A DNA stretch of 64,000 nt. It comes from Pararhodobacter aggregans (GTDB lineage: Bacteria > Pseudomonadota > Alphaproteobacteria > Rhodobacterales > Rhodobacteraceae). The DNA lies in contig NZ_QDDR01000004.1 in assembly GCF_003075525.1 (NCBI RefSeq), positions 186,001-250,000 of the forward strand, given 5' to 3'. The notes under the pieces are model-generated. The model was not told the origin of the DNA and ran no database searches. It saw only the letters and a program-made list of their open reading frames with translations. Below, in pieces: positions 10,453 through 51,446 of the stretch. Position 1 is the stretch's first letter. Each line of letters starts with the position of its first letter. Position numbers and translations under genes: made by a program.

Positions 10453-10461
10453 GGGGCCCCC

Positions 10462-12768: not shown

Positions 12769-12780
12769 CGTCCTATGACC

Positions 12781-14965: not shown

Positions 14966-15000
14966 GCGCGTTCTCCTCCCCGCATCCATCCGAGCCGGGC

Positions 15001-34805: not shown

Positions 34806-34859
34806 TAACAAGCGTTATTTTCTGATACTATTGACGATTTTTGTTTTTCCCACAACATC
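34806..34859. promoter_or_regulatory. Divergent control region of RpiR 2 and the dehydrogenase operon
   Basis: TAAC-AAGC-GTTA (34806-34817) is a perfect dyad sharing AAC-N4-GTT with 29666-29681. TTGACG (34831-34836) followed 17 bases later by AACATC (34854-34859) is a weak sigma-70 candidate toward the dehydrogenase gene at 34943. Confidence 0.4.
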
Positions 34860-34942
34860 GAACCCGCCAACGCCGACCACCCTGCTCGCCCACTCGCCCA
34901 CTCGCCAACGACAGGGCCTCGCCCGAACCCAAGGAAACCATC

Positions 34943-37336: not shown

Positions 37337-37752
37337 TCCGCGTGGTTCCACTTCAGCGCGCGGCCGAGGCCGCGCCGCTGCTGCGGGTCCTGCGGGCGAC
37401 GCTGGATGACGCGACCTTTGCCCTGCGCCTTGAACGGGCCGAGGCGCAAGGCTACCGCGTGCTTGCTGCCCTTGATGGGTCGGCAATGGTCGGCGCGCTG
37501 GGGTATCGCCTCAGCGATGATCTGACCTGGGGGCGGACGCTTTATGTGGACGATCTGGTGGTCGCGCCCGACCGGCGCAGTTCCGGCATCGGCAGGGCGC
37601 TTCTGGCCGAGGCGCGGGCGCAGGCCGCCACCAGCAACTGCGATCACCTGCGGCTGTGCAGCGGGCTGAGCCGCATCGATGCGCACCGTTTCTATGAAGC
37701 GAACGGGCTGCAGCGGTTCAGCCTGCAATTCGTCGCCCGGATGGAGGAGTAA
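37333..37752 (+). CDS. GNAT-family N-acetyltransferase
   Basis: 139 residues, cytoplasmic. The acetyl-CoA motif A is LVVAPDRRSSGIGRALLAEA (R/Q-x2-G-x-G/A as RSSGIGRA), and the C-terminal strand ends DAHRFYEANGLQRFSLQFV, as in small GNAT enzymes. The GTG start overlaps the dehydrogenase stop (GTGA). It may acetylate an amine intermediate or a toxic by-product of the pathway; the substrate is unknown. Confidence 0.85.
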   Translation: MIRVVPLQRAAEAAPLLRVLRATLDDATFALRLERAEAQGYRVLAALDGSAMVGALGYRLSDDLTWGRTLYVDDLVVAPDRRSSGIGRALLAEARAQAATSNCDHLRLCSGLSRIDAHRFYEANGLQRFSLQFVARMEE

Positions 37753-37755
37753 GGC

Positions 37756-38511
37756 ATGCGCCCCCCTGTCATGGTCGCCCCGAACGGCGCCCGGCGCGGC
37801 AAGGCGGATCATCCGGCCTTGCCGGTGACCCTCGCCGAGACCGTCGAGACCGCCCGCGCCTGCCATGCCTCAGGCGCCGAGGCGCTGCATCTGCACATCC
37901 GCGACGAGGCCGGCGCGCATTCGCTCGACAGCGGGCGCTACCGCGAGGCCTTGGCCGAACTGGCCCGGCAGATCCCGGGGATGGCGGTGCAGATCACCAC
38001 CGAGGCGGTCGGAATCTACGACGTGGCGGCGCAATTGCGCTGCCTGACCGAGGTGCAACCAGGCTGGGCCTCGGTCGCGGTGCGCGAGACGGCGCGCGAT
38101 CTGGCGCTGGCGCCCCGCCTCTACGCGACCTGCGCCGCGCAGGGCACGCGGGTGCAGCATATCCTCTACGATACGGACGACATCGCACTGCTGCGCGACT
38201 GGCAGGCGCGCGGGATCGTCCGGCCGGGGCAGGACGGGGTGCTCTTCGTGCTCGGCCGCTACAGCGCTGGTCAGGTCTCGTCGCCCGACGACCTGACGCC
38301 GTTCCGCACCGCGCTGCCCGAGGCCGGTGACTGGATGGTCTGCGCCTTCGGTCCCGACGAACATGCCTGCCTTGCCGCTGCCGCCGCCCAGGGCGCGGCG
38401 CTGCGCGTGGGTTTCGAGAATTCGCTGACCGGCGCGGACGGTCAGCCGCATCCCGACAACGCCGCCTCGGTCGCAGCGCTGCGGCAACGCCTGGAAAGGA
38501 CCAGAGCATGA
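37756..38511 (+). CDS. BKACE-family beta-keto acid cleavage enzyme (DUF849), short form
   Basis: 251 residues, a little shorter than the usual 270-310. The zinc-binding LHLHIRD supplies H45 and H47. BKACE enzymes condense a beta-keto acid with acetyl-CoA and cleave it to acetoacetate and a new acyl-CoA; the first known member acts on 3-keto-5-aminohexanoate. ATG 37756 lies three bases after the GNAT gene and the end overlaps the aminotransferase gene. Its place beside an aminotransferase suggests an amino-beta-keto acid substrate. Confidence 0.88.
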   Translation: MRPPVMVAPNGARRGKADHPALPVTLAETVETARACHASGAEALHLHIRDEAGAHSLDSGRYREALAELARQIPGMAVQITTEAVGIYDVAAQLRCLTEVQPGWASVAVRETARDLALAPRLYATCAAQGTRVQHILYDTDDIALLRDWQARGIVRPGQDGVLFVLGRYSAGQVSSPDDLTPFRTALPEAGDWMVCAFGPDEHACLAAAAAQGAALRVGFENSLTGADGQPHPDNAASVAALRQRLERTRA

Positions 38512-39833
38512 GCCATGTCTTCCCCCGCCATTGCCACACCGATCTGCCGACCGCCGTGTCGGGCGACGGCTGCTACCTGATCGACGCCGAGGGACGGCGC
38601 TATTTCGACGGCTCGGGCGGCGCCGCCGTCTCGTGCCTGGGGCATTCCAACGAACGGGTGCGCGCGGCGATCAAGGCGCAGGTCGATGCGCTGGCCTATG
38701 CCCACACCAGTTTCTTCACCTCGGAACCGGCCGAGGCGCTGGCCGACCGGCTCATCGCCCGGGCGCCCGGCGATCTGGACCGGGTCTATTTCGTCTCTGG
38801 CGGGTCCGAGGCGGTGGAATCGGCGATCAAGCTGGCGCGGCAATACCATCTGGAGCGCGGCGAGCCGCAAAGGCGGCACCTGATCGCCCGGCGCCAGAGC
38901 TATCACGGCAACACGCTGGGCGCGCTGTCGGCGGGCGGCAATGCCTGGCGGCGGGCGCAATTCGCGCCGCTGCTGGTCGAGATGAGCCATATCGCGCCCT
39001 GCTACGAATACGCCGAACGCGCCGAGGGCGAGAGCCTGCACGATTACGGCCAGCGCACGGCGAACGCGCTGGAAGCCGAGATCCTGCGCCTCGGTCCCGA
39101 CAGCGTCATGGCCTTCATCGCCGAACCGGTCGTGGGCGCGACCCTGGGCGCAGTGGCGGCGGTCCCCGGCTATTTCACCCGCATCCGCGAGATCTGCGAC
39201 CGCTACGGCGTGCTGCTGATCCTCGACGAGGTGATGTGCGGCATGGGCCGGACCGGGCATCTTTTCGCCTGCGAGGCGGATGGTGTGGCGCCCGATATCC
39301 TGTGTATCGCCAAGGGGTTGGGGGCTGGCTATCAGCCCATCGGGGCGATGCTGTGCTCGAAGGCGATCTATGACGCCATTGCTGCCGGCACCGGGTTTTT
39401 CCAGCATGGCCATACCTATCTCGGCCATCCCATCGCCGCCGCCGCAGCGCTGGCCGTGCTGGAGGAATTCGAGGAACAGGACCTGATCGGCCGCGTGTCC
39501 CGGCTGGGCCCGGTCTTCGAAACCCTGCTGCGCGACCAATTGGGCCAGCATCCCCATGTCGGCGACATCCGCGGACGCGGGCTGTTCTGGGGGATCGAGC
39601 TGGTCGAGGACCGGGCAACCAAGGCGCCGTTCGATCCGGCGCGTGGCCTTGCCGGAAGGGTGAAGCGGATCGCGAAATCCCGGGGGCTCCTGTGCTATCC
39701 GATGCCCGGCACACGGGACGGCCGGCTCGGCGATCACATCCTGCTGGCACCGCCTTTCATCGCCGATGAAACTCAGCTGGCCGAGGTCGCAGCCGTGCTC
39801 AAGGCGGCGTTGGATGGCGCCCTGGCAGGTTGA
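38508..39833 (+). CDS. Class III PLP-dependent aminotransferase
   Basis: 441 residues, cytoplasmic. The phosphate-binding SGGSEAVE is at 98-105, the PLP-ring aspartate is D240 in LLILDEVMCGMGRTG, and the Schiff-base lysine is K269 in CIAKGLGAGYQPIGA. It belongs to the omega-aminotransferase group that handles beta-alanine, GABA, polyamines or amino-ketones. It is the last gene of the operon; 135 bases separate it from the convergent BKACE gene and no clear terminator is visible there. Confidence 0.92.
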   Translation: MSHVFPRHCHTDLPTAVSGDGCYLIDAEGRRYFDGSGGAAVSCLGHSNERVRAAIKAQVDALAYAHTSFFTSEPAEALADRLIARAPGDLDRVYFVSGGSEAVESAIKLARQYHLERGEPQRRHLIARRQSYHGNTLGALSAGGNAWRRAQFAPLLVEMSHIAPCYEYAERAEGESLHDYGQRTANALEAEILRLGPDSVMAFIAEPVVGATLGAVAAVPGYFTRIREICDRYGVLLILDEVMCGMGRTGHLFACEADGVAPDILCIAKGLGAGYQPIGAMLCSKAIYDAIAAGTGFFQHGHTYLGHPIAAAAALAVLEEFEEQDLIGRVSRLGPVFETLLRDQLGQHPHVGDIRGRGLFWGIELVEDRATKAPFDPARGLAGRVKRIAKSRGLLCYPMPGTRDGRLGDHILLAPPFIADETQLAEVAAVLKAALDGALAG

Positions 39834-39968: not shown

Positions 39969-40901
39969 TCAGAACCCGACCCGATCCCCGCCCTTCAGGT
40001 CCAGGATCGCCCGCGCCTCGTCGGGGGTGGCGATGTCGTGCCCCAGATCCTCGATGATCCGGCGGACCTTTGCCACCTGTTGGGCATTCGACTCGGCCAG
40101 TTCCCCGCGCGAGATGAACAGGCTGTCCTCCAGCCCGACACGAACATGGCCGCCCATCTGGCTGGCCGTCACCGCCAGCGGGATCTGGACCGCCCCCGCC
40201 GCCAGCACCGACCAGCGGTACTGATCGCCGAACAGCTTGTCGGCGGTGCGCTTGAGGAACACGAGGTTCTCCACATCCGCGCCGATCCCGCCCAGGATCC
40301 CCAGCACGAATTGCAGGAAGATCGGCGCCTTGAAGTGGCCCTGATCCATCATGAACTTCAGGTTGTAGAGGTGGCCAACGTCATAGATTTCATGCTCGAA
40401 CTTGACGCCATGCGGGGCCAGTGTCTCGGCCGCTTCCTTGATGTCCTTGAAAGTGTTGCGGAAGATATTGCCCTCGGAGCCGGCGACATAGTCGCGTTCC
40501 CACGGAAATTTCCACTCGGTGTAGCGCGCCGCCAGCCCGTGGAAGCTGAAGTTCAGCGACCCCATGTTCATCGAGCACATCTCGGGCGAGAAGGCCTTGG
40601 CGGGCGCGATCCGCTCCTGGATCGTCGCGGTCAGCGAGCCGCCGGTCGAGATGTTCACCACCGCGTCCGTCGCCTGCTTGATGCGCTGGAGGAAGGGCGC
40701 GAAATCATCGGGGTTGATCGAAGGCGCACCCGTCTCGGGGTTCCTCGCATGCAGGTGCAGGATCGAGGCCCCGGCCCCGGCCGCCGCGATCGCCTGGTCG
40801 GCGATCTGGTCGTAGGTGTAGGGCAGCGCGTCCGACATGGTGGGCGTGTGGATTGCGCCGGTGACGGCGCAGGTGATGATGGTCTTGGGTTTGCGGGCCA
40901 A
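39969..40901 (-). CDS. BKACE-family beta-keto acid cleavage enzyme (DUF849), cluster 2
   Basis: 310 residues, the full family length. Zinc ligands are H49 and H51 (SILHLHARN), with the HVRVGLEDSLF strand carrying the glutamate near residue 245. A TTG start at 40901 is proposed: AAGGAGG lies six bases upstream and the codon follows the livM stop by one base; no ATG is near. Last gene of the large Liv-type operon. Together with the hydrolase and 3-hydroxyacyl-CoA dehydrogenase it would feed a beta-keto acid into acyl-CoA and acetoacetate. It is only distantly like the BKACE at 37756. Confidence 0.87.
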   Translation of the reverse strand: MARKPKTIITCAVTGAIHTPTMSDALPYTYDQIADQAIAAAGAGASILHLHARNPETGAPSINPDDFAPFLQRIKQATDAVVNISTGGSLTATIQERIAPAKAFSPEMCSMNMGSLNFSFHGLAARYTEWKFPWERDYVAGSEGNIFRNTFKDIKEAAETLAPHGVKFEHEIYDVGHLYNLKFMMDQGHFKAPIFLQFVLGILGGIGADVENLVFLKRTADKLFGDQYRWSVLAAGAVQIPLAVTASQMGGHVRVGLEDSLFISRGELAESNAQQVAKVRRIIEDLGHDIATPDEARAILDLKGGDRVGF

Positions 40902-40902
40902 A

Positions 40903-41919
40903 TCAGGCCTCCTTCTTGGCAAGGCCGCTCACCCGTCGGCTGAGCGGGAACAGTTCGAGGCCCCAGCGGTCGCGCAGGAACCCCCAGAGACCGCGCGGGG
41001 CGAACAGCATGATGACGATGGCAACGACACCGAGCGCGATCAAGTAGAGCGTGCCGAGATCGGCCAGCGTCTCGCGCAGGGCGAAGAACACCAGCGTTCC
41101 CAGGATCGGACCCTCCAGCGTGCCGATCCCGCCGATCACGACGATGAAGATGACGAAAGCGGTCCAGTCGTTGGCGCTGAAGGCGGCATCGGGCGAAATG
41201 CGCAGCTTCTGCAGGAAGATCAACGCGCCGATCAGCGCCGTCAGGCCCGAGACCACGACATAGACGGTGAACTTCGTGCGCCAGATGTCGATGCCGAGCG
41301 ACCGCGCCGCCAGCTCATTGTCGCGGATCGCCGTCAGCGCCACGCCCTGACGCGACCGCAGCAGCCAGACCACCGTCCCGATCACCAGCATCCCGGCGCC
41401 GAGCGCCAGCCACCAGGCCACGGCCTCGCGCGCGTCGCGGCCCTCGGCCAGCGAGCGGACGATATCCGGCGACAGTGAGGTGCCCGAGCCGCCGCCGAGG
41501 CTGGCCATCTGGGCAAAGGACAGCCGGAACACCTCGGCCACGACCCAGGTGCCGATGGCGAAATAGGCGCCGCGCAGGCGGAAGATCAGCACGGCGACCG
41601 GGGCCGAGATGACGAAACCCGCCAGCACCACCAGAGGCAGCGCGGCATAGGGATGCAGCCCCGCCAGCATGGTCAGCGCGAAGAACAGATAGCCGCCGAA
41701 GCCGACATAGGCCTGCTGGCCCACCGACACCAAGCCGGCATAGCCCGCCAGCAGGTTCCACAGCACGGCCAGCGACATGTAGAGCGCGATCTCGCCCATC
41801 AGCCGCAGGTCGGCCCGTCCCGCCCACCAGGGCGCGGCGATCAGCAGAAGGACGATCGGCACCAGCACGATCAGCCAGGCGGTCGACAGGCGGGTGCGGC
41901 GCGTGACTGACAGGCTCAT
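40903..41919 (-). CDS. livM: Branched-chain amino acid-type ABC transporter permease LivM, cluster 2
   Basis: Inner-membrane permease of 338 residues. LivM features are VSVGQQAYVGFGGYLFF, YFAIGTWVVAEVFRLSF, GVALTAIRDNELAARSLGIDI and GGIGTLEGPILGTLVFF. Overlaps livH by four bases. Closely parallels the cluster 1 protein in length and motif order. Confidence 0.93.
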   Translation of the reverse strand: MSLSVTRRTRLSTAWLIVLVPIVLLLIAAPWWAGRADLRLMGEIALYMSLAVLWNLLAGYAGLVSVGQQAYVGFGGYLFFALTMLAGLHPYAALPLVVLAGFVISAPVAVLIFRLRGAYFAIGTWVVAEVFRLSFAQMASLGGGSGTSLSPDIVRSLAEGRDAREAVAWWLALGAGMLVIGTVVWLLRSRQGVALTAIRDNELAARSLGIDIWRTKFTVYVVVSGLTALIGALIFLQKLRISPDAAFSANDWTAFVIFIVVIGGIGTLEGPILGTLVFFALRETLADLGTLYLIALGVVAIVIMLFAPRGLWGFLRDRWGLELFPLSRRVSGLAKKEA

Positions 41920-42779
41920 CCGTCGATCCTCGGAAACAGGCCGCGCGGACGCAGGGCCAGGATGATCAGGAAGACGATGTGACCGGCGAGGATCTGATAG
42001 CCCGGGTCGATCTTGGCGCCGATGGTCTGCGCCACGCCCAGGATCACCCCGCCCGCCAAGGTGCCCCAGAGGTTGCCGAGCCCGCCGATGATCACCGCCT
42101 CGAAGCCGAAGATCAGCCGCGCGCCACCCGCTGCCGGGTCAAAGGCCGTGCGGATGCCGAGGAACACGCCCGCCAGCGCGGTGACGGCCAAGGACAGGGC
42201 CATCGCCAGCCCGAAGATATGCGCGCGGTTGAGCCCCATCAGCTGCGCGACGTCCTGCCGGTCCGAGGTCGCGCGGAACGCCCGCCCCAGCGCGGTGCGG
42301 TAGAACATCCATTGCAGCGCGGCGATCACCACGACCGCGGTGACGAAGACCATCACCGGCATCACCCCCACCGCCAGCGGCCCAAGGGTCACCGAGGCCG
42401 TCTCGATGGCCCCGGCCTGCAGGTTCTGCGGATCGGCGGAATAGCCCATCAGCAGCACGTTCTGCAGGATCACCGACAGGCCGAATGTGACCAAGAGCGG
42501 CGGCAGCAGATCCTCGCCCATCGTGCGGTTCAGGATGAGCCGCTGCAGCGCATAGCCAATGAGCGCCATCGTCGGCACCACCAGCAGCAGCGCGACCAGC
42601 GGGTTCAGCCCCAGGCTGACGCCAAAGCTGAGCGCAATGTAGGCCGAGAGCACGATCAGGTCGCCATGCGCGATGTTGACGAGGCGCATCACCCCGAAGA
42701 TCAGGGACAACCCCGCCGCAAAGAGGGCGTAGAGCCCGCCCAGCAGCGTCCCCTGAAGAATGGCGTTGAGCCAATCCAT
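41916..42779 (-). CDS. livH: Branched-chain amino acid-type ABC transporter permease LivH, cluster 2
   Basis: Inner-membrane permease of 287 residues. Begins LNAILQGTLLGGLYALFAAGLSLIFGVMRLVNIAHGD, the LivH N-terminus, with the coupling loop YRTALGRAFRATSDRQDVAQ and EAVIIGGLGNLWGTLAGG. Starts three bases after the livF stop. Confidence 0.93.
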   Translation of the reverse strand: MDWLNAILQGTLLGGLYALFAAGLSLIFGVMRLVNIAHGDLIVLSAYIALSFGVSLGLNPLVALLLVVPTMALIGYALQRLILNRTMGEDLLPPLLVTFGLSVILQNVLLMGYSADPQNLQAGAIETASVTLGPLAVGVMPVMVFVTAVVVIAALQWMFYRTALGRAFRATSDRQDVAQLMGLNRAHIFGLAMALSLAVTALAGVFLGIRTAFDPAAGGARLIFGFEAVIIGGLGNLWGTLAGGVILGVAQTIGAKIDPGYQILAGHIVFLIILALRPRGLFPRIDG

Positions 42780-42782
42780 GCG

Positions 42783-43487
42783 TCAGACTCCGAAATAGGC
42801 GCGGGTGATGTCGTCGCGCGGCACGGTTTGCGATTGGCCTTCCAGCGAGACGCGGCCCTCCTGCAGGCAATAGACCCGCTGCGAGACCGAGAGCGCCTTG
42901 GCGATGTCCTGCTCGACGATCACCGCCGTCAGCCCCTCGCCGACAATGCCCGGCAGGGCCTCGTAGATCTGGCGGATGATGACCGGGGCGAGGCCGAGGC
43001 TGATCTCGTCCATCAGCACGAGGTCCGGGTTCGCCATCAGCGCGCGGCCGATGGCGACCATCTGCTGCTGGCCCCCGGACAGCGAGGTGGATTGCTGGAG
43101 GCGGCGTTCCTTGAGGATCGGGAACAGATCGTAGACGCGCTGCAGGCTCCACGGCCCCTTGCGCCCCAGCTGCCCGCCGATGACGAGGTTTTCCTCGACA
43201 CTGAGCGAAGGGAACAGAAGCCGCCCCTCGGGCACCAGCGCGATCCCCAACGCCGCGACCTGATCGGCGCGCAGCGCACCGATGAGATGCCCCTTCCACC
43301 GGATCGCCTCGGGCGCGTTGCGCAAGAGCCCGGCGATGGAGCGCAGCATGGTCGTCTTGCCCGCGCCATTGGCGCCGATCACCGCCACGACCTCGCCGGG
43401 GTTGACCGTCAGGTTGACGCCATAGAGCGCCTGAAAATCTCCGTAATGCGCATTCAGCGCCTGAAGGCTGAGGATCGCGTCAGCCAT
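42783..43487 (-). CDS. livF: ABC transporter ATPase LivF, cluster 2
   Basis: Cytoplasmic ATPase of 234 residues. Walker A GANGAGKT at 38-45, signature [16 protein letters not shown], Walker [14 protein letters not shown]. Overlaps livG by eight bases. Confidence 0.94.
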   Translation of the reverse strand: MADAILSLQALNAHYGDFQALYGVNLTVNPGEVVAVIGANGAGKTTMLRSIAGLLRNAPEAIRWKGHLIGALRADQVAALGIALVPEGRLLFPSLSVEENLVIGGQLGRKGPWSLQRVYDLFPILKERRLQQSTSLSGGQQQMVAIGRALMANPDLVLMDEISLGLAPVIIRQIYEALPGIVGEGLTAVIVEQDIAKALSVSQRVYCLQEGRVSLEGQSQTVPRDDITRAYFGV

Positions 43488-44208
43488 CGGCTTCGATCCC
43501 CAGATAGATTTCCCTGACCTCGCGCGACTGCATGATCGCCTGCGGTTCGCCCTCGGCGATCTTGCGGCCGAAATCGATGACCATCAGGCGGCCGACCACG
43601 GCAAGGAGGGCGTGCACGACATGCTCGATCCAGACGATGGAAACGCCGGTCGCGTGAACGTCGCGGATCGTCTGGATCAGCGACTGGCATTCGTGTTCGG
43701 TCAGCCCCCCGGCGATCTCGTCCAGCAGGATGACGCGGGGCCTGGCACAAAGCGCGCGGCTGAGTTCCAGCCGCTTGCGTTCCAAAAGCGTCAGCCCGCC
43801 CGCCTGCCCGTTCGCCTTGGCGATGAGCCCGGTGCGGTCCAGCACGTCGAGGCACAAAGCCTCGGCCGCGCGGCCGGACAGGCCCGCGCCTTGGGTTGCC
43901 GCGACATAGGCATTCTCGAACACCGTCATATGCGCGAAGGGCTGCGGCACCTGAAAGCTGCGGGCGATCCCGGCGCGGCAGCGCTTCGCCGCCGACCAGC
44001 CGGTGATGTCCTGCCCGCCCAGCCGGATCTGGCCCGCATCCGCCCTCAGCGTCCCGGTCACGAGGTTGAACATCGAGGTCTTGCCCGCGCCGTTCGGGCC
44101 GATCACCCCCAGCGCCTCGCCGGGGGCGAGCGACCATGACTGGTCGTCCGCCACCACGACGGCGCCGAAGGCCTTCTTCACGCCCTGAAGTTCGAGGATC
44201 GCTGACAT
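43480..44208 (-). CDS. livG: ABC transporter ATPase LivG, cluster 2
   Basis: Cytoplasmic ATPase of 242 residues. Walker A GPNGAGKT at 37-44, LivG-type signature LTLLERKRLELSRAL, Walker [12 protein letters not shown], and IVWIEHVVHALLAV at the switch histidine. The ATG at 44208 is chosen for GGGAGAG upstream; a longer frame has no site. Gene order livG-livF-livH-livM equals that of cluster 1. Confidence 0.94.
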   Translation of the reverse strand: MSAILELQGVKKAFGAVVVADDQSWSLAPGEALGVIGPNGAGKTSMFNLVTGTLRADAGQIRLGGQDITGWSAAKRCRAGIARSFQVPQPFAHMTVFENAYVAATQGAGLSGRAAEALCLDVLDRTGLIAKANGQAGGLTLLERKRLELSRALCARPRVILLDEIAGGLTEHECQSLIQTIRDVHATGVSIVWIEHVVHALLAVVGRLMVIDFGRKIAEGEPQAIMQSREVREIYLGIEADG

Positions 44209-44273
44209 GGTCTCTCCCGCAGGTTCGGGTTCAAGGGTCGCGGGCTGCCGTCCGCCGGCGGCCCCCTTCGCAA

Positions 44274-45542
44274 TCACGCCAGCAGCATCAGCTCACCGGT
44301 GGTGGGGATGTTCGGCGCGGTGGCGTTGGCGATGATCTTCAGGTCGATCCCGTCGCCCTCGCGTTGCCATTGCCCGGCGACCAGCGGCGTCTTGGTGACA
44401 TTCGGCACCGGCCCGGCCGCCCAGTTCACCGGGCCGACGATGGTGTTCATGTCGGTCGCGGCGATGGCGGCAATGATCGCCTCGGGGTCGTCCAGATCCT
44501 CGGCGCGGGCGACGACATCGGCCACGACCTCGAACAATGCGTGTTTGAAGCCGATGGGCTGGGTCCAGGGACGGCCCGTCGCCTGCATGTAGCCGCCCGC
44601 CAGATCGCCGGCCGAGGCGCCGGTCAGCGAGGACGAGAACGGATGGGACGGCGACCACCAGACCTCGGACGAGAGGCCAATGCCCCGCTCGCCGAGCCCC
44701 TGGATCACGGACGGGAACAGCAGCGCCTTGCCGATGGTGACGATCTTCGGGTTGAAGCCCTGCTGCGCCGCCTGACTCCAGAAGGTGCCGAAATCGGGCG
44801 GGATCATGTTGCCGGTGACGATCTCGCAGCCCGCTTCCTTGAAAGCGTTGATGTAGTTCGAGAAATCGTCGGTCATCGGCTGGTAGCGGCCCGGATCGAC
44901 CAGATCGTAACCTGCCGCGGCCAAAGGCGTGGGCAGGCCCCGCTGCGGATCGCCCCAGGCGTTGCCGTCGGCGTCGTTCGGGAAGAGGCCGCCCACCGCC
45001 TTCGCCACGCCCGAGCCGTCCCACATGGCCAGGAAGGCGCCGATCACGTCCTCGAGCCCCCAGAAGAAATGGTAGGTGCTGGCGAAGCCCTGAGCCGGAT
45101 TGCCGCCGCGGCCGAAGAAATAGGGCTGCCACGGGCAGTCGGTGGTGATGCAGGGCACCTCGTTGATCTCGGCCTGATCCGAGACCGGGTTCACGGTGTC
45201 GGGGGTCGAGGCGGCGACGATGATGTCGACCTCGTCGGACAGGATCAGCTCGCTGGCGACTTCCGCCGCGCGGTTCGGGTTCGACTGGCTGTCCTTCGAG
45301 AGGATCTCGATCTGCCAGCTGCGGCCGTTGTTGTCGATGCCAGCCCCGAAACGCTCGGTTATCGCCTGCAGGATATAGTCGTCGGCTTCGGCGAAACCGG
45401 CCAGCGGGCCGGTGCGCGGGCTCACATGGCCCACCTTGATCGTGGGGGTCTGCGCATAGGCCCGGGTTGCCCGAAGGATCGCAGGCGCCGCCAGCAGCGC
45501 CGAGGTTCCGGTCAGGAAATGCCGTCTGTTCAGGGTATTCAT
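44274..45542 (-). CDS. Periplasmic ligand-binding protein A of the cluster 2 Liv-type transporter
   Basis: Peripla_BP_6-type binding protein of 422 residues. The N-terminus NRRHFLTG (residues 5-12) is twin-arginine-like, with cleavage likely after TRAYAQ near 31. The mature start IKVGHVSPRTGPLAGFAE and NRAAEVASELILSDEV match the paralogues at 12781 and 46246. GGGGAGG precedes the ATG. It lies directly before livG, the position the single binding protein has in cluster 1, so it is probably the principal ligand-binding subunit. Confidence 0.9.
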   Translation of the reverse strand: MNTLNRRHFLTGTSALLAAPAILRATRAYAQTPTIKVGHVSPRTGPLAGFAEADDYILQAITERFGAGIDNNGRSWQIEILSKDSQSNPNRAAEVASELILSDEVDIIVAASTPDTVNPVSDQAEINEVPCITTDCPWQPYFFGRGGNPAQGFASTYHFFWGLEDVIGAFLAMWDGSGVAKAVGGLFPNDADGNAWGDPQRGLPTPLAAAGYDLVDPGRYQPMTDDFSNYINAFKEAGCEIVTGNMIPPDFGTFWSQAAQQGFNPKIVTIGKALLFPSVIQGLGERGIGLSSEVWWSPSHPFSSSLTGASAGDLAGGYMQATGRPWTQPIGFKHALFEVVADVVARAEDLDDPEAIIAAIAATDMNTIVGPVNWAAGPVPNVTKTPLVAGQWQREGDGIDLKIIANATAPNIPTTGELMLLA

Positions 45543-45570
45543 CGTCTCGTCCTCCCCAGTTCGAGAATGT

Positions 45571-46233
45571 TCAGAAGCGCGCATCCTGTGTGACCTGCCG
45601 GTAGAGAACCGGCAGGAGGTCGGCCAGATAGCCCATCTCCTCGATGGCATGACGGTGCAGGCGGGTGCAGAAATCCTCGGTCAGCGCCTCGCGCCGGATT
45701 GTCTGGACAACCGCGTCCGGCAGCTGGGTCGTCAGGTCCTGATGATGCACGTCGCCCATCCAGAACCGGGTCCGCATCTCGCAGCCGTAGTCCGTGTTGC
45801 GCACGAAATGGGTCATGTGGCCCAGGTTGATCGGCCGCTCAAGGCTGCCGGGACGGGCGCAGACGGCGATGCCGTCGACGGCGTCATAGCCTGCCGGATC
45901 GAAGACCTCATGCGGGTCGCGGAAATGGATGCGCAGTTTGTGGACCTCGCCGTCGCCGCCGAGGGTTTCGTGCACCAGATGCTTGGCACCATAGTAATTG
46001 CCGCCGTTGCCCCGGTCCTCCCAGTCGCTGAAGATATGGTCGACCGGGTGCCAGAGCTTGTACTGGTCGGTGCCCCCCAGCCATCCGAACCACCAATGCA
46101 CCATCTTGGCGCGGCAATGCGGCATCCGGGTCAACGCGGCGATGGTCACCGAGCCGTCGTCATGGCGGATGATCCCCGATTCCAGCGGCAGATAGCCGGG
46201 CTTCAGCATCTCGTTACGGTCTTCAAAGCGCAT
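45571..46233 (-). CDS. DAPG-hydrolase (PhlG)-like C-C bond hydrolase
   Basis: 220 residues, no signal peptide. The stretch MVHWWFGWLGG (residues 44-54) followed by LWHPVDH (H62, H66) is the recognisable core of the DAPG hydrolase family, zinc enzymes that remove an acetyl group from 2,4-diacetylphloroglucinol or cleave phloretin. It is shorter than PhlG (about 290), lacking part of the N-terminus. The GHMTHFVRN-GCEMRTRFW region supplies further histidine and glutamate ligands. GGGAGG precedes the ATG. It sits between two binding protein genes. A substrate with an acyl-phenol or beta-diketone group is likely; the exact one is unknown. Confidence 0.75.
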   Translation of the reverse strand: MRFEDRNEMLKPGYLPLESGIIRHDDGSVTIAALTRMPHCRAKMVHWWFGWLGGTDQYKLWHPVDHIFSDWEDRGNGGNYYGAKHLVHETLGGDGEVHKLRIHFRDPHEVFDPAGYDAVDGIAVCARPGSLERPINLGHMTHFVRNTDYGCEMRTRFWMGDVHHQDLTTQLPDAVVQTIRREALTEDFCTRLHRHAIEEMGYLADLLPVLYRQVTQDARF

Positions 46234-46245
46234 GGCGGGCCTCCC

Positions 46246-47496
46246 TCACATCACTTCCATCGGCCGGGTGACAGGCACCGGCAGATCCGTCGGATTGGCG
46301 GCGATCTCGATGGACCAGCCGTCGGCACCGTGGTGCCATTGCCCGCCCATCATCGCAGACTTGGCCACGTTCGCGATGGTCGAGGCATTCCAGTCCGCGA
46401 TGCCCAGCGTCGTCTCGCAGCGTGTGTCCCGGATCGCGGCGATGACGCTTGCAGCGTCGTCGGGGTCCGAGGCCCGCTTCAGCACATCGACGGCAAGGTC
46501 CAGCAGCGCATGTTTCATGCCGAGGGTCTGAACCCAGGGACGGCCGGTCGCCGTGCGCCAGGCCTCGGCGATCTGCGCGGCGCTCTGCCCGGTCGAGGCC
46601 GAGGTGAAGGAAAATGCCGGATGCCAGCCCAGCTCGCAGGACAGCCCCTCGCCACTGTCACCGGCGGCTTCGAGGATATTGGGCAAAAGCAGGCTCTTGC
46701 CGATGGTCGTGACCCTGGGCCGCAACCCCTGCTGATGCGATTGCGTCCAGTAGGTCAGGAATTCCGGCGGGATCATCGTGCCCATGACGATATCGACATC
46801 GGCCGACTGGAACTGGCCGATGATGGTGCTGAAATCGTCGGTCATCGGCGTGTAGCGGCCGGGATCGACGACCTCGTAGCCGGCTTGGGCCAGCGCCGGC
46901 GGGAAGCCGAACTGCGCGTCGCCCCAGGCGTTGCCATCGGCGTCGTTGGCCAGCAGAAGGCCGACCCTGCGGTTTGTCGCGACCCCGTCCCAGAGCTTGA
47001 GATAGGCAGCGATCACGTCCTCAAGGCCAAAGGCGAACAGATAGGTCATCTCGAACCCCTGCCCCGGGTTCGATCCGCGTCCCATCACGAAGGACTGCCA
47101 CGGGCAGGCGGTGGACAGGCTCGGCACGCCATTGAGTTCGCATTGATCGGCCACCGGGTTCACGGTGTCCGGCCCCCCGGCCGAGAGGATCAGCGAAACC
47201 TCGTCGCGCAGGATCAGTTCGGACGCCACTTCCGACGCGCGATTGGCCGACGACTGGCTGTCCTTGACGATGATCTCGATCGGGCGGCCATTGGCGCCCT
47301 GCGACAGCACCCCGGCGTATTGCGCCAACACGAACGTGTCCGGCTCGGCGAAGAAGGCCAGCGGTCCGGTCGTCGGTGTCACCAATCCCACGCGGATCGG
47401 CCCATCGGCGGCCCGCAAGCCGGTCGGCAGCAGCGCCGGAACGGCCAGCGCCGCGCCGGAGGTTCCCAGGAATGCCCTGCGGTTCAGTCGTCCCAT
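46246..47496 (-). CDS. Periplasmic ligand-binding protein B of the cluster 2 Liv-type transporter
   Basis: 416 residues, same family as binding protein A. Twin-arginine-like NRRAFLGT at residues 5-12, cleavage likely near GLRAAD (about 30). Mature start IRVGLVTPTTGPLAFFAEPD, then NRASEVASELILRDEV. GGGGAGG precedes the ATG. A second, diverged binding protein in the same operon suggests the one transporter serves two related ligands. It lies just before the DAPG-hydrolase-like gene. Confidence 0.9.
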   Translation of the reverse strand: MGRLNRRAFLGTSGAALAVPALLPTGLRAADGPIRVGLVTPTTGPLAFFAEPDTFVLAQYAGVLSQGANGRPIEIIVKDSQSSANRASEVASELILRDEVSLILSAGGPDTVNPVADQCELNGVPSLSTACPWQSFVMGRGSNPGQGFEMTYLFAFGLEDVIAAYLKLWDGVATNRRVGLLLANDADGNAWGDAQFGFPPALAQAGYEVVDPGRYTPMTDDFSTIIGQFQSADVDIVMGTMIPPEFLTYWTQSHQQGLRPRVTTIGKSLLLPNILEAAGDSGEGLSCELGWHPAFSFTSASTGQSAAQIAEAWRTATGRPWVQTLGMKHALLDLAVDVLKRASDPDDAASVIAAIRDTRCETTLGIADWNASTIANVAKSAMMGGQWHHGADGWSIEIAANPTDLPVPVTRPMEVM

Positions 47497-47531
47497 GTCT
47501 CGTCCTCCCCAGTCCGATGTGTCGAAAAGCG

Positions 47532-48458
47532 TCAGTCGTCCAGAATCTTGTCCAGCTTCCCCAGATGCGTGGTGACCCGGTTGCGGACCGCGGTGGCCTG
47601 TTCGGGCGTCCATTTTCGGAACCCCGCGCCTGATTTCATGCCGAGTTTGCCGTCGGCGACCAGCTGCCTGAGATACGGCGAGGGGCCCGGACGGTTCTCG
47701 ATATCGGCCAGAACCGTTTCGTGGATGGCCAGCGTCAGGTCGGTGCCCACCAGGTCGGCATTTTCCAGCGGACCCAGCACCGAGAGCCTGCGCCCGAAGC
47801 AGGATTTCACCACGGTATCGACGGATTCCGCGTCGCAGATCCCGCGCTCGACCAAGCTCACCGCCTCGCGCCAGAGCGCGTGCTGCAGCCGGTTGCCGAT
47901 GAACCCGGGCACGTCCTTGTCGACGCGGACGGGCGTTTTCCCGGCTTCGGCCAGCAGCGCCATCATCGAGGCCATCGCGGGTTCGGCGGTCCATTCGGTG
48001 CGGATCACTTCGACCAGCGGGATCATGTGCGGCGGGTTCCACCAATGCGTCCCCAGCGCGCGGTCCTTGTGCGTCAGCCCCTGCATGATCCCGGTGATCG
48101 GCATGACCGAGGTATTGGACGCAAGGAGGCAGTCGCGCGGCGCATGGGCCTCGATCTCGGCGAAGATCGACTGCTTCAGCGCCATCGCCTCGGGCGCGGC
48201 CTCGAACACCGCGCTGGCCTGCGCCACGGTCGACGCGAGGGTGTCATGCACCGCGATCCGCGACAGAGCGGCGGCGATTTCCGCTGCGTCATGACCCATG
48301 AGGGTCATCGATTCACGCACGCGGGCGGGTAGCGCGGCCCGCGCCTCGGGCATGGGATCAGTGATCGCCACGCCCAGCCCCGCGCGGGCCATGACAAGGG
48401 CGATGCCGTGGCCCATGAGCCCCGCGCCGATCACCCCGATGAGACGGTCCTGCACCAT
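47532..48458 (-). CDS. 3-hydroxyacyl-CoA dehydrogenase-family enzyme
   Basis: NAD-dependent dehydrogenase of 308 residues, cytoplasmic. The Rossmann motif GAGLMG is at 11-16; the catalytic region GTHWWNPPHMIPLVEVI contains the H...E pair; the C-terminal dimerisation domain is present (ENADLVGTDLTLAIHE). The THWWNPP pattern is closer to L-gulonate/carnitine or hydroxybutyryl-type dehydrogenases than to FadB. It starts three bases after the SDR stop. It probably oxidises a 3-hydroxy acid (or its CoA ester) to the 3-keto acid that the BKACE enzyme would use. Confidence 0.88.
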   Translation of the reverse strand: MVQDRLIGVIGAGLMGHGIALVMARAGLGVAITDPMPEARAALPARVRESMTLMGHDAAEIAAALSRIAVHDTLASTVAQASAVFEAAPEAMALKQSIFAEIEAHAPRDCLLASNTSVMPITGIMQGLTHKDRALGTHWWNPPHMIPLVEVIRTEWTAEPAMASMMALLAEAGKTPVRVDKDVPGFIGNRLQHALWREAVSLVERGICDAESVDTVVKSCFGRRLSVLGPLENADLVGTDLTLAIHETVLADIENRPGPSPYLRQLVADGKLGMKSGAGFRKWTPEQATAVRNRVTTHLGKLDKILDD

Positions 48459-48461
48459 GGA

Positions 48462-49256
48462 TCAGCCCGCCGTATAGCCGCCGTCGGCATAAAGGATATG
48501 CCCGGTGTAGAAATCGGACGCCTTCGAGGCGAGGAACAACAGCGGCCCCGCCAGATCCTCGGGCTCGCCCAGCCGGCCCTTCGGCACCCGGGCCAGGAAC
48601 CCGCCGCGCACGGCCTTGGCGTTGTCATCCTCGCCGAACATCCACGCGGTCAGCGGGCTGCGGAAGACCGTCGGCGCGATGGCGTTGACGGTGATCCCGG
48701 TCGGCCCCAATTCGCATCCCAGCGCCTTGGTGATGCCGTCGACCGCCGCTTTCGAGGCGCAATAGGCGGTGTACCCCGCCGGATGTCCCAGCAGCCCCCG
48801 GGCCGAGGACACGAGCACGATCTTGCCCCCCCTCCCCTGCGCCTTCATCTGCCGTGTCGCCGCGCGGGCCATCAGCCAGCTTTGCGTGACATTGGCATCC
48901 ATCACGGACAGGAAGGTGTCGGGCGCCATCTCGTCGATCTTCGCAACCTTGTTCGTCCCCGAGGCGACGACGAGGATATCGCAGGCTCCGAAGGCCGCGA
49001 CCGCCGCCGCGATCAGCCCCTCGCAGGCGGCTTCGGTCTCGGGGCGGACATTGGCCTCCAGCACTTCGGCGCCGCTGTCGCGGCATTCCCCGGCGATCTC
49101 GGCCAGCGCGGAGGCATTGCCCGCCGCCAGCACCAACCGGCAACCGGCGCCCGCCAGCACGCGGGCCGCGACCATGCCGAAGGCGCCCGAGGCCCCGGTG
49201 ATTACGGCAACCTTGCCCGCCACCTCGAACATCGACAGGGGATTCATCAGGCGCAT
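48462..49256 (-). CDS. Short-chain dehydrogenase/reductase, cluster 2
   Basis: 264 residues. Cofactor motif TGASGAFG at 20-27; catalytic S150/S151, Y165 and K169 (YCASK). The usual NAG is replaced by ASG (98-100), a mild deviation. C-terminus ILYADGGYTAG is typical. Start at 49256 just after the cupin stop; an ATG nine bases in is an alternative. It has the same neighbour (a cupin) as the SDR of cluster 1. Confidence 0.88.
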   Translation of the reverse strand: MRLMNPLSMFEVAGKVAVITGASGAFGMVAARVLAGAGCRLVLAAGNASALAEIAGECRDSGAEVLEANVRPETEAACEGLIAAAVAAFGACDILVVASGTNKVAKIDEMAPDTFLSVMDANVTQSWLMARAATRQMKAQGRGGKIVLVSSARGLLGHPAGYTAYCASKAAVDGITKALGCELGPTGITVNAIAPTVFRSPLTAWMFGEDDNAKAVRGGFLARVPKGRLGEPEDLAGPLLFLASKASDFYTGHILYADGGYTAG

Positions 49257-49260
49257 GGCC

Positions 49261-49614
49261 TCACTCGCTTTTCGGCTGACGCGGATAGGGGATGACGACC
49301 AGCATCTTGCAGACGTGGTTCGAGCGGTTCTCGATGCGGCGCAGCTGGCCCGGCGGGATGGTGCAGCTGTCCAAGGCCCGCAAAACCTCGGTCCGGCCGT
49401 CCCATTCGAGGGTCATCTCCCCCTCCAGAACCACATAGACCTTCTCGAACGGCGTCTGATCCGGCCCCGCGCCGCCGCCCGGCAGAAACTGGCTGTAGCC
49501 GATCCACTGGTTGGTCGGCCCGCCCTCTTCGAAGCCTTGCAGGCGAAGTCCCACGACGCCCCAATGGTTCGGCGCGTCATAGGGCCGGGCCTCGGCGTAT
49601 CGCTTGATGTGCAT
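49261..49614 (-). CDS. Small single-domain cupin protein
   Basis: 117 residues. The double-stranded beta-helix motifs are weakly conserved: a motif 1 region around FEKVYVVLEGEMTLEWDG and motif 2 around LDSCTIPPGQLRRIENRSNH. The usual metal-binding histidines of motif 1 are not evident (VYVVLEGE has E only), so a metal-dependent reaction is uncertain. GGGGGGAGAG precedes the ATG. It may be an isomerase, a dioxygenase-like or a binding cupin. Second gene of the operon. Confidence 0.8.
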   Translation of the reverse strand: MHIKRYAEARPYDAPNHWGVVGLRLQGFEEGGPTNQWIGYSQFLPGGGAGPDQTPFEKVYVVLEGEMTLEWDGRTEVLRALDSCTIPPGQLRRIENRSNHVCKMLVVIPYPRQPKSE

Positions 49615-49638
49615 GATCTCTCCCCCCGACCGGCGCCG

Positions 49639-49666
49639 GTAGGATGGGCAATATTGCCCATCCTAC
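49639..49666. repeat. 28-base perfect palindrome
   Basis: GTAGGATGGGCAAT followed at once by its reverse complement ATTGCCCATCCTAC, in the gap between the cyclase and cupin genes. No loop, no T tract. It looks like a palindromic repeat unit of the intergenic type seen in alphaproteobacteria. No second copy is in the window. Confidence 0.8.
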
Positions 49667-49673
49667 GTCCCGC

Positions 49674-50510
49674 TCAGATCGCGTTGCCGCGTTCGATGCG
49701 GTAGTCGCCGGACTTGTCGATCATCGCCACCAGACGGATGATACAGCCGTCGCCCCGGTCCCAGTTCCAGGGGAAGAAGGCGAAGGTGCAGCGTTTGCCT
49801 GTCACCGCATCCAGATCGCCGCCGACATTCTCGATGCCCATGATCCCGTTCCTGAACAGGATGTTGTGCACCGGCTCCCACTCCGGGAAAGCGTCCTTCC
49901 AGTCCACGCCGCCCGACCATTCCTTGTATTCCTCGGCCAGATGCGGCAGCAGCGGACCGTTGCGCTGCGGACCGATCGCGGTCGCCAGCGGATGGTCGTT
50001 GGCCTGCGTGTCGTGGCCCACCACCTTCACGCCCTTCTCGACCATCCATTCACCGGCGGATTTCACGAAGCCCGGGCAATAGGCGAAGTAATCGCCATCC
50101 TCGTACTGCTTGTGCCAACCGGTGTTGACGATCAGCACGTCGCCCTTGCGGATCGACTTGCCGCAGGCCGCTTCCAGATCGTCATAGGTGATCGGCTCCC
50201 ATTTCTTCTTGGGCATCGACACCACGATGCCCGAGCCGAAGAAATGCGGCAGCGGCACCTCGTCGATGAAGGGCGTGCCCTGCACCACATGGGCGGGCGC
50301 GTCGATATGGGTCGTCGCATGCATGGTCGTCGTGATACGCTGCGACAGCACCCCCGACTTCGCCATGTAATGGATACGCTCGATCTTCGTATCCTCGAAA
50401 TACGGCCAGTTCGGGTTCTGGAAACCGAAGCGGTGGCTCAGGTTGTAGAATTCCAGACCCATGCTGTTGTCGAGGTTCCCCTCGAATTCGATGCCGCGGA
50501 CCTTGACCAT
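49674..50510 (-). CDS. Cyclase-family metal-dependent hydrolase (kynurenine formamidase-like)
   Basis: 278 residues, no signal peptide. The cyclase motif HxTHxDxPxH appears as TTMHATTHIDAPAH, with H64, H68, D70 and H74 as metal ligands; a later GHDTQANDHPL supplies further conserved residues. Members hydrolyse N-formylkynurenine, isatin or cyclic amides and lactones. GGGAGG precedes the ATG. First gene of the large leftward operon, divergent from the IclR regulator, so it may catalyse an early ring-opening step. Confidence 0.85.
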   Translation of the reverse strand: MVKVRGIEFEGNLDNSMGLEFYNLSHRFGFQNPNWPYFEDTKIERIHYMAKSGVLSQRITTTMHATTHIDAPAHVVQGTPFIDEVPLPHFFGSGIVVSMPKKKWEPITYDDLEAACGKSIRKGDVLIVNTGWHKQYEDGDYFAYCPGFVKSAGEWMVEKGVKVVGHDTQANDHPLATAIGPQRNGPLLPHLAEEYKEWSGGVDWKDAFPEWEPVHNILFRNGIMGIENVGGDLDAVTGKRCTFAFFPWNWDRGDGCIIRLVAMIDKSGDYRIERGNAI

Positions 50511-50546
50511 CTCGGCTCCTCCCTCCCGATACGTCTTGCCGATCTT

Positions 50547-50563
50547 GCACCGCAATATGGTGC
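50547..50563. promoter_or_regulatory. Candidate IclR operator in the divergent cluster 2 promoter region
   Basis: GCACC-GCAATAT-GGTGC is a 17-base interrupted palindrome 37 bases upstream of the cyclase gene and 128 bases before the IclR gene, in a locally AT-richer stretch. Position fits autoregulation and operon control. Confidence 0.45.
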
Positions 50564-50690
50564 GTTCGGTTCGTTATACGGTACATCCACGAGTCGCGCC
50601 GCGTCAACAAAATTCTGGGGCACCTGTACCGCATTGCAGATCAGGTCATTCCTGCTGTATTGCTACGCGGACAAGAACAACGGGGCAGCC

Positions 50691-51446
50691 ATGAGCGACA
50701 GCGATCACGGACGGTCGGGCATCCAGGTGATCGCGCGTGCCGCGGCGATCCTGCGCGTGTTGCGCGACAACACCGAGGGGATGAGCCTGGGGCAGATTGC
50801 CGACCGGGTGGAGCTGCCCCGCTCGACGGTCCAGCGCATTGTCGGGGCCCTTCAGGCCGAGCGGCTGGTCATCGCCACCTCTTCGGGCGGCTCGATCCGG
50901 CTGGGCCCCGAGATTACCGCCCTGTCCGAGGCGACGCGCTACAACGTTGTCGAGGAATGCCGGTTGCACCTGTCCGAACTCTCGCGGCGGTTGGGCGAGA
51001 CGGCGGATCTGTCGGTATTGCGGGGCGCCGGGATGATCTTCCTCGACCAGGTGCCCGGGACGCACCGCCTGCGCACCATTTCCGCCGTGGGCGATGTCTT
51101 CCCGCTGACGACAACCGCCAATGGCCGCGCCGCCCTGGCCCTCCTGCCGGAGGCCGAAGCCCGGAGCCTGGTCGAGGCGGAGTGGAAACGCGCGCATCAG
51201 CCGGGTGACTGGATGGCCTTCGCGCGGATGCTCACCGATATCCGCAGCCAAGGCATCGCCGAGGACGCCGATGAGCATACGATCGGCATCTCGGCGCTGG
51301 GTGGCGCCTTCCGCGACCGCAACGGCGAGATCCACGCCATCTCGGTTCCTGTCCCCACGCCGCGCTTTCTGGCGATGCGCGGAACCGTCGAGGCCGAGCT
51401 GCGCGTAACACTCGACCGCGTGCGCCAGCACTTCGGCGGAAGTTAG
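50691..51446 (+). CDS. IclR-family transcriptional regulator, cluster 2
   Basis: 251 residues. N-terminal winged helix about 10-72 (MSLGQIADRVELPRSTVQRIVGAL) and the GAF-like effector domain about 85-250 with TANGRAALALL and ADEHTIGISALGGAF. Divergent from the big catabolic operon; IclR proteins usually repress or activate such neighbours in response to a ring-cleavage or aromatic intermediate. After it, 295 bases contain only the Rrf2 promoter elements. Confidence 0.9.
   Translation: MSDSDHGRSGIQVIARAAAILRVLRDNTEGMSLGQIADRVELPRSTVQRIVGALQAERLVIATSSGGSIRLGPEITALSEATRYNVVEECRLHLSELSRRLGETADLSVLRGAGMIFLDQVPGTHRLRTISAVGDVFPLTTTANGRAALALLPEAEARSLVEAEWKRAHQPGDWMAFARMLTDIRSQGIAEDADEHTIGISALGGAFRDRNGEIHAISVPVPTPRFLAMRGTVEAELRVTLDRVRQHFGGS

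Follow-up and report, generated by a model that had tools for sequence, protein, structure and literature searches.

A liv-type importer operon of Pararhodobacter aggregans with four phloroglucinol-pathway enzyme families and a putative cassette for C-acylated phloroglucinols

A 64,000-nucleotide stretch of the Pararhodobacter aggregans genome (5.08 Mb; contig NZ_QDDR01000004.1, positions 186,001 to 250,000), referred to here as the window, carries an operon of 12 minus-strand genes at 39969-50510 and, diverging from it on the plus strand, a gene for an IclR-family regulator at 50691-51446. The analysis described below indicates that this operon probably serves import-coupled catabolism of phloroglucinol, extended to C-acylated phloroglucinols, with the substrates being predicted. 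The assignment is based on family membership, zinc-ligand positions, synteny and clade structure, all read from sequence, together with predicted folds, while the enzymatic steps from phloroglucinol reductase to TAL have been demonstrated in vitro with homologs.

Downstream from the IclR gene, the order is cyclase, cupin, short-chain dehydrogenase/reductase (SDR), 3-hydroxyacyl-CoA dehydrogenase (3HCDH)-like protein, periplasmic substrate-binding protein 2 (SBP2), hydrolase, SBP1, livG, livF, livH, livM and BKACE, and neighboring genes overlap by up to 20 bases or stand up to 65 bases apart. The first-pass annotation had proposed a single leftward 12-gene operon, and this was borne out, as all of the genes lie on the minus strand and their families were confirmed by Pfam or by ordered orthologs; the IclR gene, described there as facing the operon, instead points away from it. 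All nine proteins scanned matched the families BKACE, DAPG_hydrolase, Peripla_BP_6 (twice), 3HCDH, adh_short_C2, Cupin_2, Cyclase and IclR. The four ATP-binding cassette (ABC) transporter genes, encoding livG-type (43480-44208) and livF-type (42783-43487) ATPases and livH-type (41916-42779) and livM-type (40903-41919) permeases, were assigned by their match to ordered genes in relatives rather than by a hidden Markov model scan, and their homologs in Aminobacter are annotated by NCBI as parts of a branched-chain amino acid ABC transporter. Starts for SBP2 (47496), the cyclase (50510) and livG (44208) were chosen by ribosome-binding site and homology, and the TTG start of the BKACE gene at 40922 is uncertain. 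From its position between divergent genes, the region at 50511-50690 likely contains the operon promoter and an IclR operator, although a promoter scan of this region found no sigma-70 consensus and an Rfam scan returned nothing useful. The regulator matches both IclR_C and HTH_IclR.

The SDR, cyclase, 3HCDH-like protein and BKACE belong, by profile and motif, to the four families of the known phloroglucinol pathway: phloroglucinol reductase (PGR; 48462-49256), dihydrophloroglucinol cyclohydrolase (DPGC; 49674-50510), 3-hydroxy-5-oxohexanoate dehydrogenase (TfD; 47532-48458) and TAL (39969-40922), all on the minus strand. The main text of Zhou 2023 (PMC10470551) reports that PGR, DPGC, TfD and TAL of Clostridium scatologenes, whose families are encoded in one cluster, were reconstituted in vitro to convert phloroglucinol to acetoacetate, and that the same clusters occur in marine alphaproteobacteria, Mesorhizobium and Bradyrhizobium. 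All four families are present together in the window operon. The BKACE scored 519.7 bits against NCBIfam NF053538 (3,5-dioxohexanoate:acetyl-CoA acetone transferase; cut-off 430) and 354 bits against Pfam BKACE, and it contains TGAIHT, which in the form TG[AGSN]IHT is found in 54 of 58 aligned TAL rows. The closest PDB sequence to the SDR is 5g4k/5g4l (E 1.8e-51); the two distinct sequences at E <=1e-40 are both this protein, and the next different protein follows at 2.9e-40. The motif PTVFRSxLTxWMF is common to the window SDR and 5g4k, and is exact in 60 of 68 aligned PGR rows, or in 66 if a terminal Y or W is allowed (exceptions, L123 and L174). The 5g4k/5g4l protein is the reductase that Clostridium sp. 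ATCC BAA-442 uses on phloroglucinol. A reductase structure of that kind is mentioned in the main text of Zhou 2023 (PMC10470551). The predicted DPGC (PF04199) has the metal motif HATTHIDAPAH, the eight commonest forms of which among 75 rows all fit Hx[TG]THxDxPxH, and its LEFYNLSH lies in the approximate region of Trp20/Tyr22 of the C. scatologenes enzyme. Finally, the predicted TfD (3HCDH_N/3HCDH) is nearest in the PDB to 4om8, a pyridine-carboxylate dehydrogenase (E 1.3e-56), with CoA-type enzymes behind at 3.7e-40.

Because the BKACE passes the NF053538 model and the four steps were already reconstituted in Zhou 2023, the idea of a novel core pathway was rejected, and with it the statement in the first-pass annotation that no described pathway had this gene set. 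That annotation had also routed the product of acyl cleavage through the BKACE. Since TAL ends the pathway of Zhou 2023, the BKACE is instead assigned to the last step of ring breakdown and not to the fate of the acyl part.

The window PGR differs from its clostridial counterpart in a residue that may affect cofactor use. The main text of Zhou 2023 (PMC10470551) ties a TR(S/N) motif in PGR, which binds the 2'-phosphate, to NADPH use, reports that the C. scatologenes PGR uses NADPH and its TfD prefers NADH, and notes Trp16 in the C. scatologenes TAL where the lysine-pathway enzyme has Glu14. The arginine of the NADPH motif is absent from the window PGR. Its position is occupied by Gly in 66 of 68 aligned PGRs (the window, 64 from alphaproteobacteria or unclassified proteobacterial assemblies, and one Mycobacterium) and by Arg in two (L123, a deltaproteobacterial assembly, and L174, Acetoanaerobium), while 5g4k has GRN, with Arg where the window PGR has Gly. 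The window TfD has an Asp in its cofactor-binding region, which we read as NAD-type. The absence of the arginine suggests that the window PGR uses NADH and that this is a redox-neutral version of the pathway, as NADH use by PGR together with an NAD-type TfD would let the two steps cancel.

The same differences could be taken to mean that the enzymes merely descend from the phloroglucinol set and act on another 1,3-diketone or polyketide-type substrate, such as a methylated or chlorinated phloroglucinol, a phlorotannin unit or a cyclohexanedione. The PGR arginine is missing, the TAL motif would, in a provisional register with Glu14, place Ile at the Trp16 position, and the four enzymes are only 35-44% identical to those of the clostridial (Acetoanaerobium) cluster, the SDR of which lacks PTVFRS. 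However, the BKACE passes a curated model for 3,5-dioxohexanoate, the PTVFRSxLTxWMF motif is retained as in 5g4k, and matches to all four enzymes are found together in alphaproteobacteria, on a Mycobacterium plasmid and in Acetoanaerobium, so a different ring substrate is considered quite unlikely.

Comparison with relatives distinguished a conserved core from two additional genes. A cyclase search of 394 genomes of the window's family (Rhodobacteraceae in the older sense) found 39 (the window's included) with a cyclase of at least 79% identity, below which there was a gap down to 51%, and 37 loci from 36 of the other 38 genomes were examined. The complete ten-gene core operon is present in 28 of the 37, in one order in all 28, and the sequence comparison places this order far beyond chance. 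Neither the hydrolase nor SBP2 occurs in any of the 37. The hydrolase is dispensable for the core, because the 28 complete loci lack it. In the remaining loci, livM is in two pieces (L047), the operon runs off a short contig (L048, L065 and L072, the last also without TfD between SDR and SBP1), or BKACE is not in the stretch covered (L074, L077, L078). Only cyclase, cupin and IclR were found in L058 and only cyclase and IclR in L071, with about 9 and 7 kb downstream covered, and in these two the operon appears to be broken or elsewhere. PF18089 proteins were detected in four of the 394 genomes, and only the window's copy lies within the operon. At the level of the class, four of 385 genomes gave a cyclase match at E up to 1e-40, and two (the window's and G462) have a hydrolase of at least 60% identity, both of which carry the cyclase. 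Two other genomes of the family (G162 and G027; loci L081 and L082) have tandem cyclase paralogs of 43-51% identity with SDR and TfD homologs, which might make up a sister pathway that acts on a different ring.

The core also includes a cupin (49261-49614, minus strand; Cupin_2), which is present in 35 of the 37 family loci, being absent from L065, where the contig ends, and from L071. It is likewise present in all 27 DPGC-bearing loci among the best 80 of 365 hydrolase relatives, and in the Acetoanaerobium, Novosphingobium and Mycobacterium plasmid records. The usual HxH metal motif is not present in the cupin alignment, and the main text of Zhou 2023 (PMC10470551) never uses the word "cupin". 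This conserved protein may represent a missing part of the phloroglucinol pathway.

The gene at 45571-46233 (minus strand) encodes a protein of 220 amino acids that scores 154.4 bits against PF18089 (DAPG_hydrolase, for 2,4-diacetylphloroglucinol; cut-off 22.7), with WWFGW at residues 47-51 and HPVDH at 62-66. A PDB sequence search (E up to 1) returned only phloretin hydrolase (5xe5, 5xey) and PhlG (3hwp). An AlphaFold model, built on a 59-row alignment of the window protein and loci from the best 80 of 365 relatives, had a pLDDT of 95.3 and a pTM of 0.91, and its first Foldseek matches were again 5xey, 5xe5 and 3hwp (5xey_B, E 1.0e-13, TM 0.82 by query length; 3hwp_A, E 5.1e-13). Residues H66, E89, H195 and E199 align to 3hwp chain positions 137, 168, 278 and 282, which an offset of 8 converts to H129, E160, H270 and E274. 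The latter are the zinc ligands of PhlG, and the offset fits this numbering. The four residues are invariant in all 59 alignment rows; in a wider 10-row alignment, E89 is not kept in one row (L084, 32% identity). The protein is a member of the DAPG/phloretin hydrolase family, as judged from its profile match, predicted fold and zinc-ligand positions. This agrees with the DAPG-hydrolase-like assignment of the first-pass annotation, whose expected fold and zinc site were both recovered, and cleavage of an aryl-acyl C-C bond is predicted.

The phloretin hydrolase of Mycobacterium abscessus (5xe5/5xey) shares PF18089 and the top fold match with the window protein but is 27-29% identical and longer, with chains of 279-280 amino acids. 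PhlG (3hwp) shares the family, the Bet v1-like fold and the ligand positions at 22% identity. Another phloretin hydrolase is Phy of Eubacterium ramulus. While the phlG gene is described as sitting with DAPG biosynthesis genes (PMC8003664), the window gene is in a catabolic operon. A phloretin hydrolase has been reported within Mycobacterium clusters (main text of Zhou 2023, PMC10470551).

Both binding proteins, SBP1 (44274-45542, with a twin-arginine-like signal) and SBP2 (46246-47496), are Peripla_BP_6 proteins on the minus strand and are 51% identical. In a tree of 48 proteins (69 were collected and 21 family SBP1 rows removed beforehand for thinning), 13 SBP2 rows and the binding proteins of L115 and L118 form one 15-row clade (support 99/96), apart from a 28-row SBP1 clade (97/91). 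Each of the 15 members of the SBP2 clade directly precedes a hydrolase. This holds for L115 and L118 too, whose covered stretches contain none of the core pathway genes, that of L115 ending just 2 kb beyond its hydrolase. The search for SBP2-type proteins that lack a neighboring hydrolase covered the window's own genome. SBP1 (49 rows) and SBP2 (15 rows) are separated by 23 positions, each highly conserved within its group. SBP1 also occurs in complete operons that lack the hydrolase. For both proteins, the best PDB sequence match is 4ey3, titled as a p-hydroxybenzoic acid complex, at weak E values of 1.9e-7 and 4e-8. In the predicted SBP2 model (pLDDT 83.5), the fold matches mix leucine- and aromatic-binding proteins, with leucine-binding proteins first and 4f8j, 4ey3 and 4eyg within the top 22. 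The proteins thus resemble the aromatic-binding SBPs of Rhodopseudomonas palustris (4ey3, 4eyg, 4f8j), although the sequence match is weak and, with leucine-binding folds ranked ahead, the fold does not tell the two types of ligand apart. A recent tandem duplication of SBP1 and SBP2 was considered and rejected, given their 51% identity and separate clades.

The LivGFHM-type genes and the ranking of the SBP2 folds might suggest a branched-chain amino acid importer that lies beside unrelated dehydrogenases by chance. However, transporter and enzymes keep one order in the 28 complete family loci, a major facilitator superfamily (MFS) gene takes the transporter's place at the same position in Novosphingobium, and both binding proteins fall far below the cut-off of the model for leucine, isoleucine and valine binding (31 versus 477 bits). 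This explanation was rejected as very improbable.

A third binding protein of this group is encoded elsewhere in the window (12781-14070) and is 43% identical to SBP2. It belongs to a paralogous liv-type operon (9448-14070, minus strand) that lies next to an SDR gene (14147-15328, minus strand) and a divergent gene for a XylR_N/V4R sigma-54 activator of aromatic catabolism (15758-17371, plus strand), a neighborhood that fits aromatic ligands for this group of binding proteins.

A scan of named genomes returned 365 hydrolase relatives, of which the best 80 were kept; a separate search of viral contigs gave no hydrolase relatives. The window order from cyclase through cupin, SDR, TfD, SBP2, hydrolase and SBP1 to livGFHM recurs in 12 of the 80 loci (L094-L096, L099-L104, L106-L108), 11 of which end in BKACE, while in L107 its position is outside the stretch covered. 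Within these 12, the cyclase and cupin genes of L095 are separated by an esterase-type gene with a signal-like start, L099 and L101 have tandem hydrolases whose copies fall in different tree branches, and an MFS gene precedes BKACE in L103, L104, L106 and L108; the L104 protein is nearest to aromatic acid/H+ symporters (262 bits, under the cut-off of 418), and the other three were grouped with it by blastp. In L097, the hydrolase is present and SBP2 is absent. In a second architecture, BKACE is followed by the hydrolase and then by another SBP-livHMGF set (L109, L111, L112, L114, L117), with divergent TfD and BKACE genes in L119, L122 and L143. The coupling of import, a C-C hydrolase and a BKACE step in the window operon, as proposed in the first-pass annotation, is supported.

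Proximity to the pathway follows sequence similarity. Of 31 hydrolases at least 51.5% identical to the window's, 25 lie near two or more of the four core genes, compared with two of 49 less similar ones (L123, L141), a difference with a Fisher p of 6e-13 that is overstated because the loci are related; three further less similar hydrolases have one core gene nearby under the thresholds used (L130, L148, L171). On the hydrolase tree, all but two of the 28 rows marked as in-cluster (26) fall within one alphaproteobacterial clade of 31 rows (97/96), and this mark changes three times as opposed to about 19.5 times in shuffled data, which shows clustering rather than independent events, the loci being related.

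Several of these arrangements could also be explained if the hydrolase worked inside the pathway, hydrolyzing dihydrophloroglucinol or 3,5-dioxohexanoate, which are beta-diketone intermediates, in a coenzyme A-free bypass of DPGC or TAL, with SBP2 as a spare binding protein. The family cuts vinylogous beta-diketones; the hydrolase adjoins TAL in L109, L111, L112, L114, L117 and L098; and L110 has a hydrolase and no TAL match in 20.7 kb. On the other hand, the pathway is complete without the hydrolase in the 28 family loci, and of the 25 hydrolase loci with at least two core genes, 24 have DPGC and 23 have TAL, which argues that it replaces neither. Furthermore, a hydrolase-associated binding protein clade points to a different imported substrate. 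An in-pathway role is therefore unlikely.

More distant homologs were observed in other settings. In Caldarchaeales, a PF18089 homolog lies beside cyclase, SDR and cupin homologs (L148 1933-9830) and another near SBP, liv and TfD-like homologs (L130 10001-19721 onward). On a Mycobacterium riyadhense plasmid (L177, L178), some 190 kb separate a phloroglucinol-type cluster from a PF18089 homolog (35%), and Acetoanaerobium noterae (L174 6616-11331) has consecutive matches to the cupin (two), SDR, TfD, cyclase, BKACE and, weakly, the hydrolase (26%, E 1.2e-6). Amidohydro_2 genes were noted near hydrolase loci with cluster genes in L096 (16445-17416), L098 (2218-3186), L119 (15437-16510), L143 (15351-16517) and L141 (11082-12146). 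This family includes resorcylate-type decarboxylases, and a 2,4,6-trihydroxybenzoate decarboxylase would be a guess.

SBP2 and the hydrolase may have entered or left the operon as a unit. The same 17 bases, ACTGGGGAGGACGAGAC, precede SBP1 (45544-45560) and SBP2 (47497-47513) on the minus strand. In the same-genus genome G222 (L044), the operon is conserved at 87.5-94.3% nucleotide identity per gene (IclR, 84.4%), TfD is directly followed by SBP1, and the junction resembles the window's left border before the repeat and its right border at and after it. From these borders, the 1,953-base unit that lies between the repeats could plausibly have been gained or lost cleanly, although the leader repeats could be conserved anyway because they hold ribosome-binding sites. 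Recent gain by the window alone is not supported: relative to L094, nucleotide identity is 87.6% for the hydrolase and 87.1% for SBP2, while the remaining ten genes range over 87.1-93.2% and IclR stands at 82.5%. As the divergence of the two genes is similar to that of the remainder of the operon, either gain before the split from L094 or loss in G222 may have occurred. Base composition does not set the two genes apart (G+C 0.638 and 0.667; window, 0.662). On plasmid pUSP2 of Aminobacter sp. MSH1 (L175 15048-15350), only short matches to SBP2 and the hydrolase remain, followed by a metallo-beta-lactamase-fold gene, and SBP1 is missing; these remnants indicate that loss of the cassette probably occurs.

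In the proposed mechanism for import and breakdown of C-acylated phloroglucinols, SBP1 would deliver phloroglucinol to the LivGFHM-type ABC permease, and SBP2 would deliver a C-acylated phloroglucinol, either a dihydrochalcone such as phloretin or a mono- or diacylphloroglucinol, to the same permease. The short zinc hydrolase would then cut the aryl-acyl C-C bond to yield phloroglucinol and a carboxylic acid. PGR would reduce phloroglucinol to dihydrophloroglucinol, DPGC would open the ring to give 3-hydroxy-5-oxohexanoate, TfD would oxidize this to 3,5-dioxohexanoate (triacetate), and TAL would convert the latter, with acetyl-CoA, to acetoacetate and acetoacetyl-CoA. The IclR protein is likely to respond either to phloroglucinol or to one of the intermediates. 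The ligands of the two binding proteins, the substrate of the hydrolase, the mode of regulation and the use of NADH by PGR are inferred from the comparisons above, whereas the chemistry from PGR to TAL follows the homologs.

Several observations weigh against this interpretation, in addition to the PGR and TAL residues and the SBP2 fold matches described above. The window hydrolase is without the N-terminal region of PhlG and of the M. abscessus enzyme: its residue 3 already aligns to chain position 73 of 3hwp and its residue 5 to position 61 of 5xey, and only 12 bases separate its start from the end of the SBP2 stop codon, which lies upstream. Its score of 53.8 bits against the PhlG equivalog NF047887 is far under the cut-off of 600, marking it as kin to PhlG rather than PhlG itself, and no reported activity was found for any short-form hydrolase of this clade. 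The acyl group of the substrate cannot be read off, because known family members differ in this respect; PhlG is reported to be specific for DAPG and not to cut monoacetylphloroglucinol (MAPG) (PMC8003664). The 12 genes include neither a chalcone isomerase nor a CoA ligase, and the cupin is unexplained by the proposed pathway. For six of the 31 close hydrolases, the stretch covered contains at most one core gene; two of these (L112, L131) are cut by contig ends, and the stretches covered for the others (L115, L116, L118, L120) span 12.8-20.7 kb. Finally, the identity limit is not sharp, because in Yoonia sp. I 8.24 (L171 10001-20624) a hydrolase of only 39% identity lies about 7 kb from BKACE-livM-livH genes at 74-79% identity, the remainder of that operon being beyond the stretch covered.

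A broader synthesis can be offered as a tentative possibility: SBP2 and the short hydrolase would constitute a transferable two-gene cassette that retunes a phloroglucinol importer and ring-opening operon to C-acylated phloroglucinols, with two binding proteins sharing one permease and an NADH-linked PGR balancing TfD, so that the pathway would be redox-neutral in aerobic alphaproteobacteria. Relative to the C. scatologenes cluster in the main text of Zhou 2023 (PMC10470551), the window adds the ABC importer, two binding proteins, the cupin and IclR. What is new is the context, the addition of SBP2 and the short hydrolase to a known core, and the import-coupled form is undescribed as far as searched. 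A literature search found no account of an alphaproteobacterial operon in which this hydrolase is accompanied by a binding protein of its own; the search extended to the main text of Zhou 2023, whose figures and supplements may already list the operon.

Immediately beyond the BKACE gene, a separate catabolic cluster on the plus strand (34841-39833) encodes a DAO/GCV_T oxidoreductase, a second BKACE (37756-38511) that reaches none of the curated BKACE cut-offs listed, and an aminotransferase (38508-39833).

Phloroglucinol, a plant phenol, corresponds to the A-ring pattern of most flavonoids, and rhizobia reportedly break nod-inducing flavonoids by C-ring fission, a finding said to go back to Rao and Cooper in 1994. 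The sequences suggest that, in the alphaproteobacterial family of the window, an O2-independent ring opening that was worked out in an anaerobe is encoded by an ordered operon coupled to import. The hydrolase cassette provides a named, assayable candidate for the release of phloroglucinol from acylated or dihydrochalcone precursors in rhizobia and their relatives, and through it the report of rhizobial C-ring fission becomes directly testable. If the cassette acts as proposed, it would supply a missing last step of flavonoid C-ring fission in rhizobia, and root and marine bacteria could feed on phloretin or on the Pseudomonas antibiotics MAPG and DAPG.

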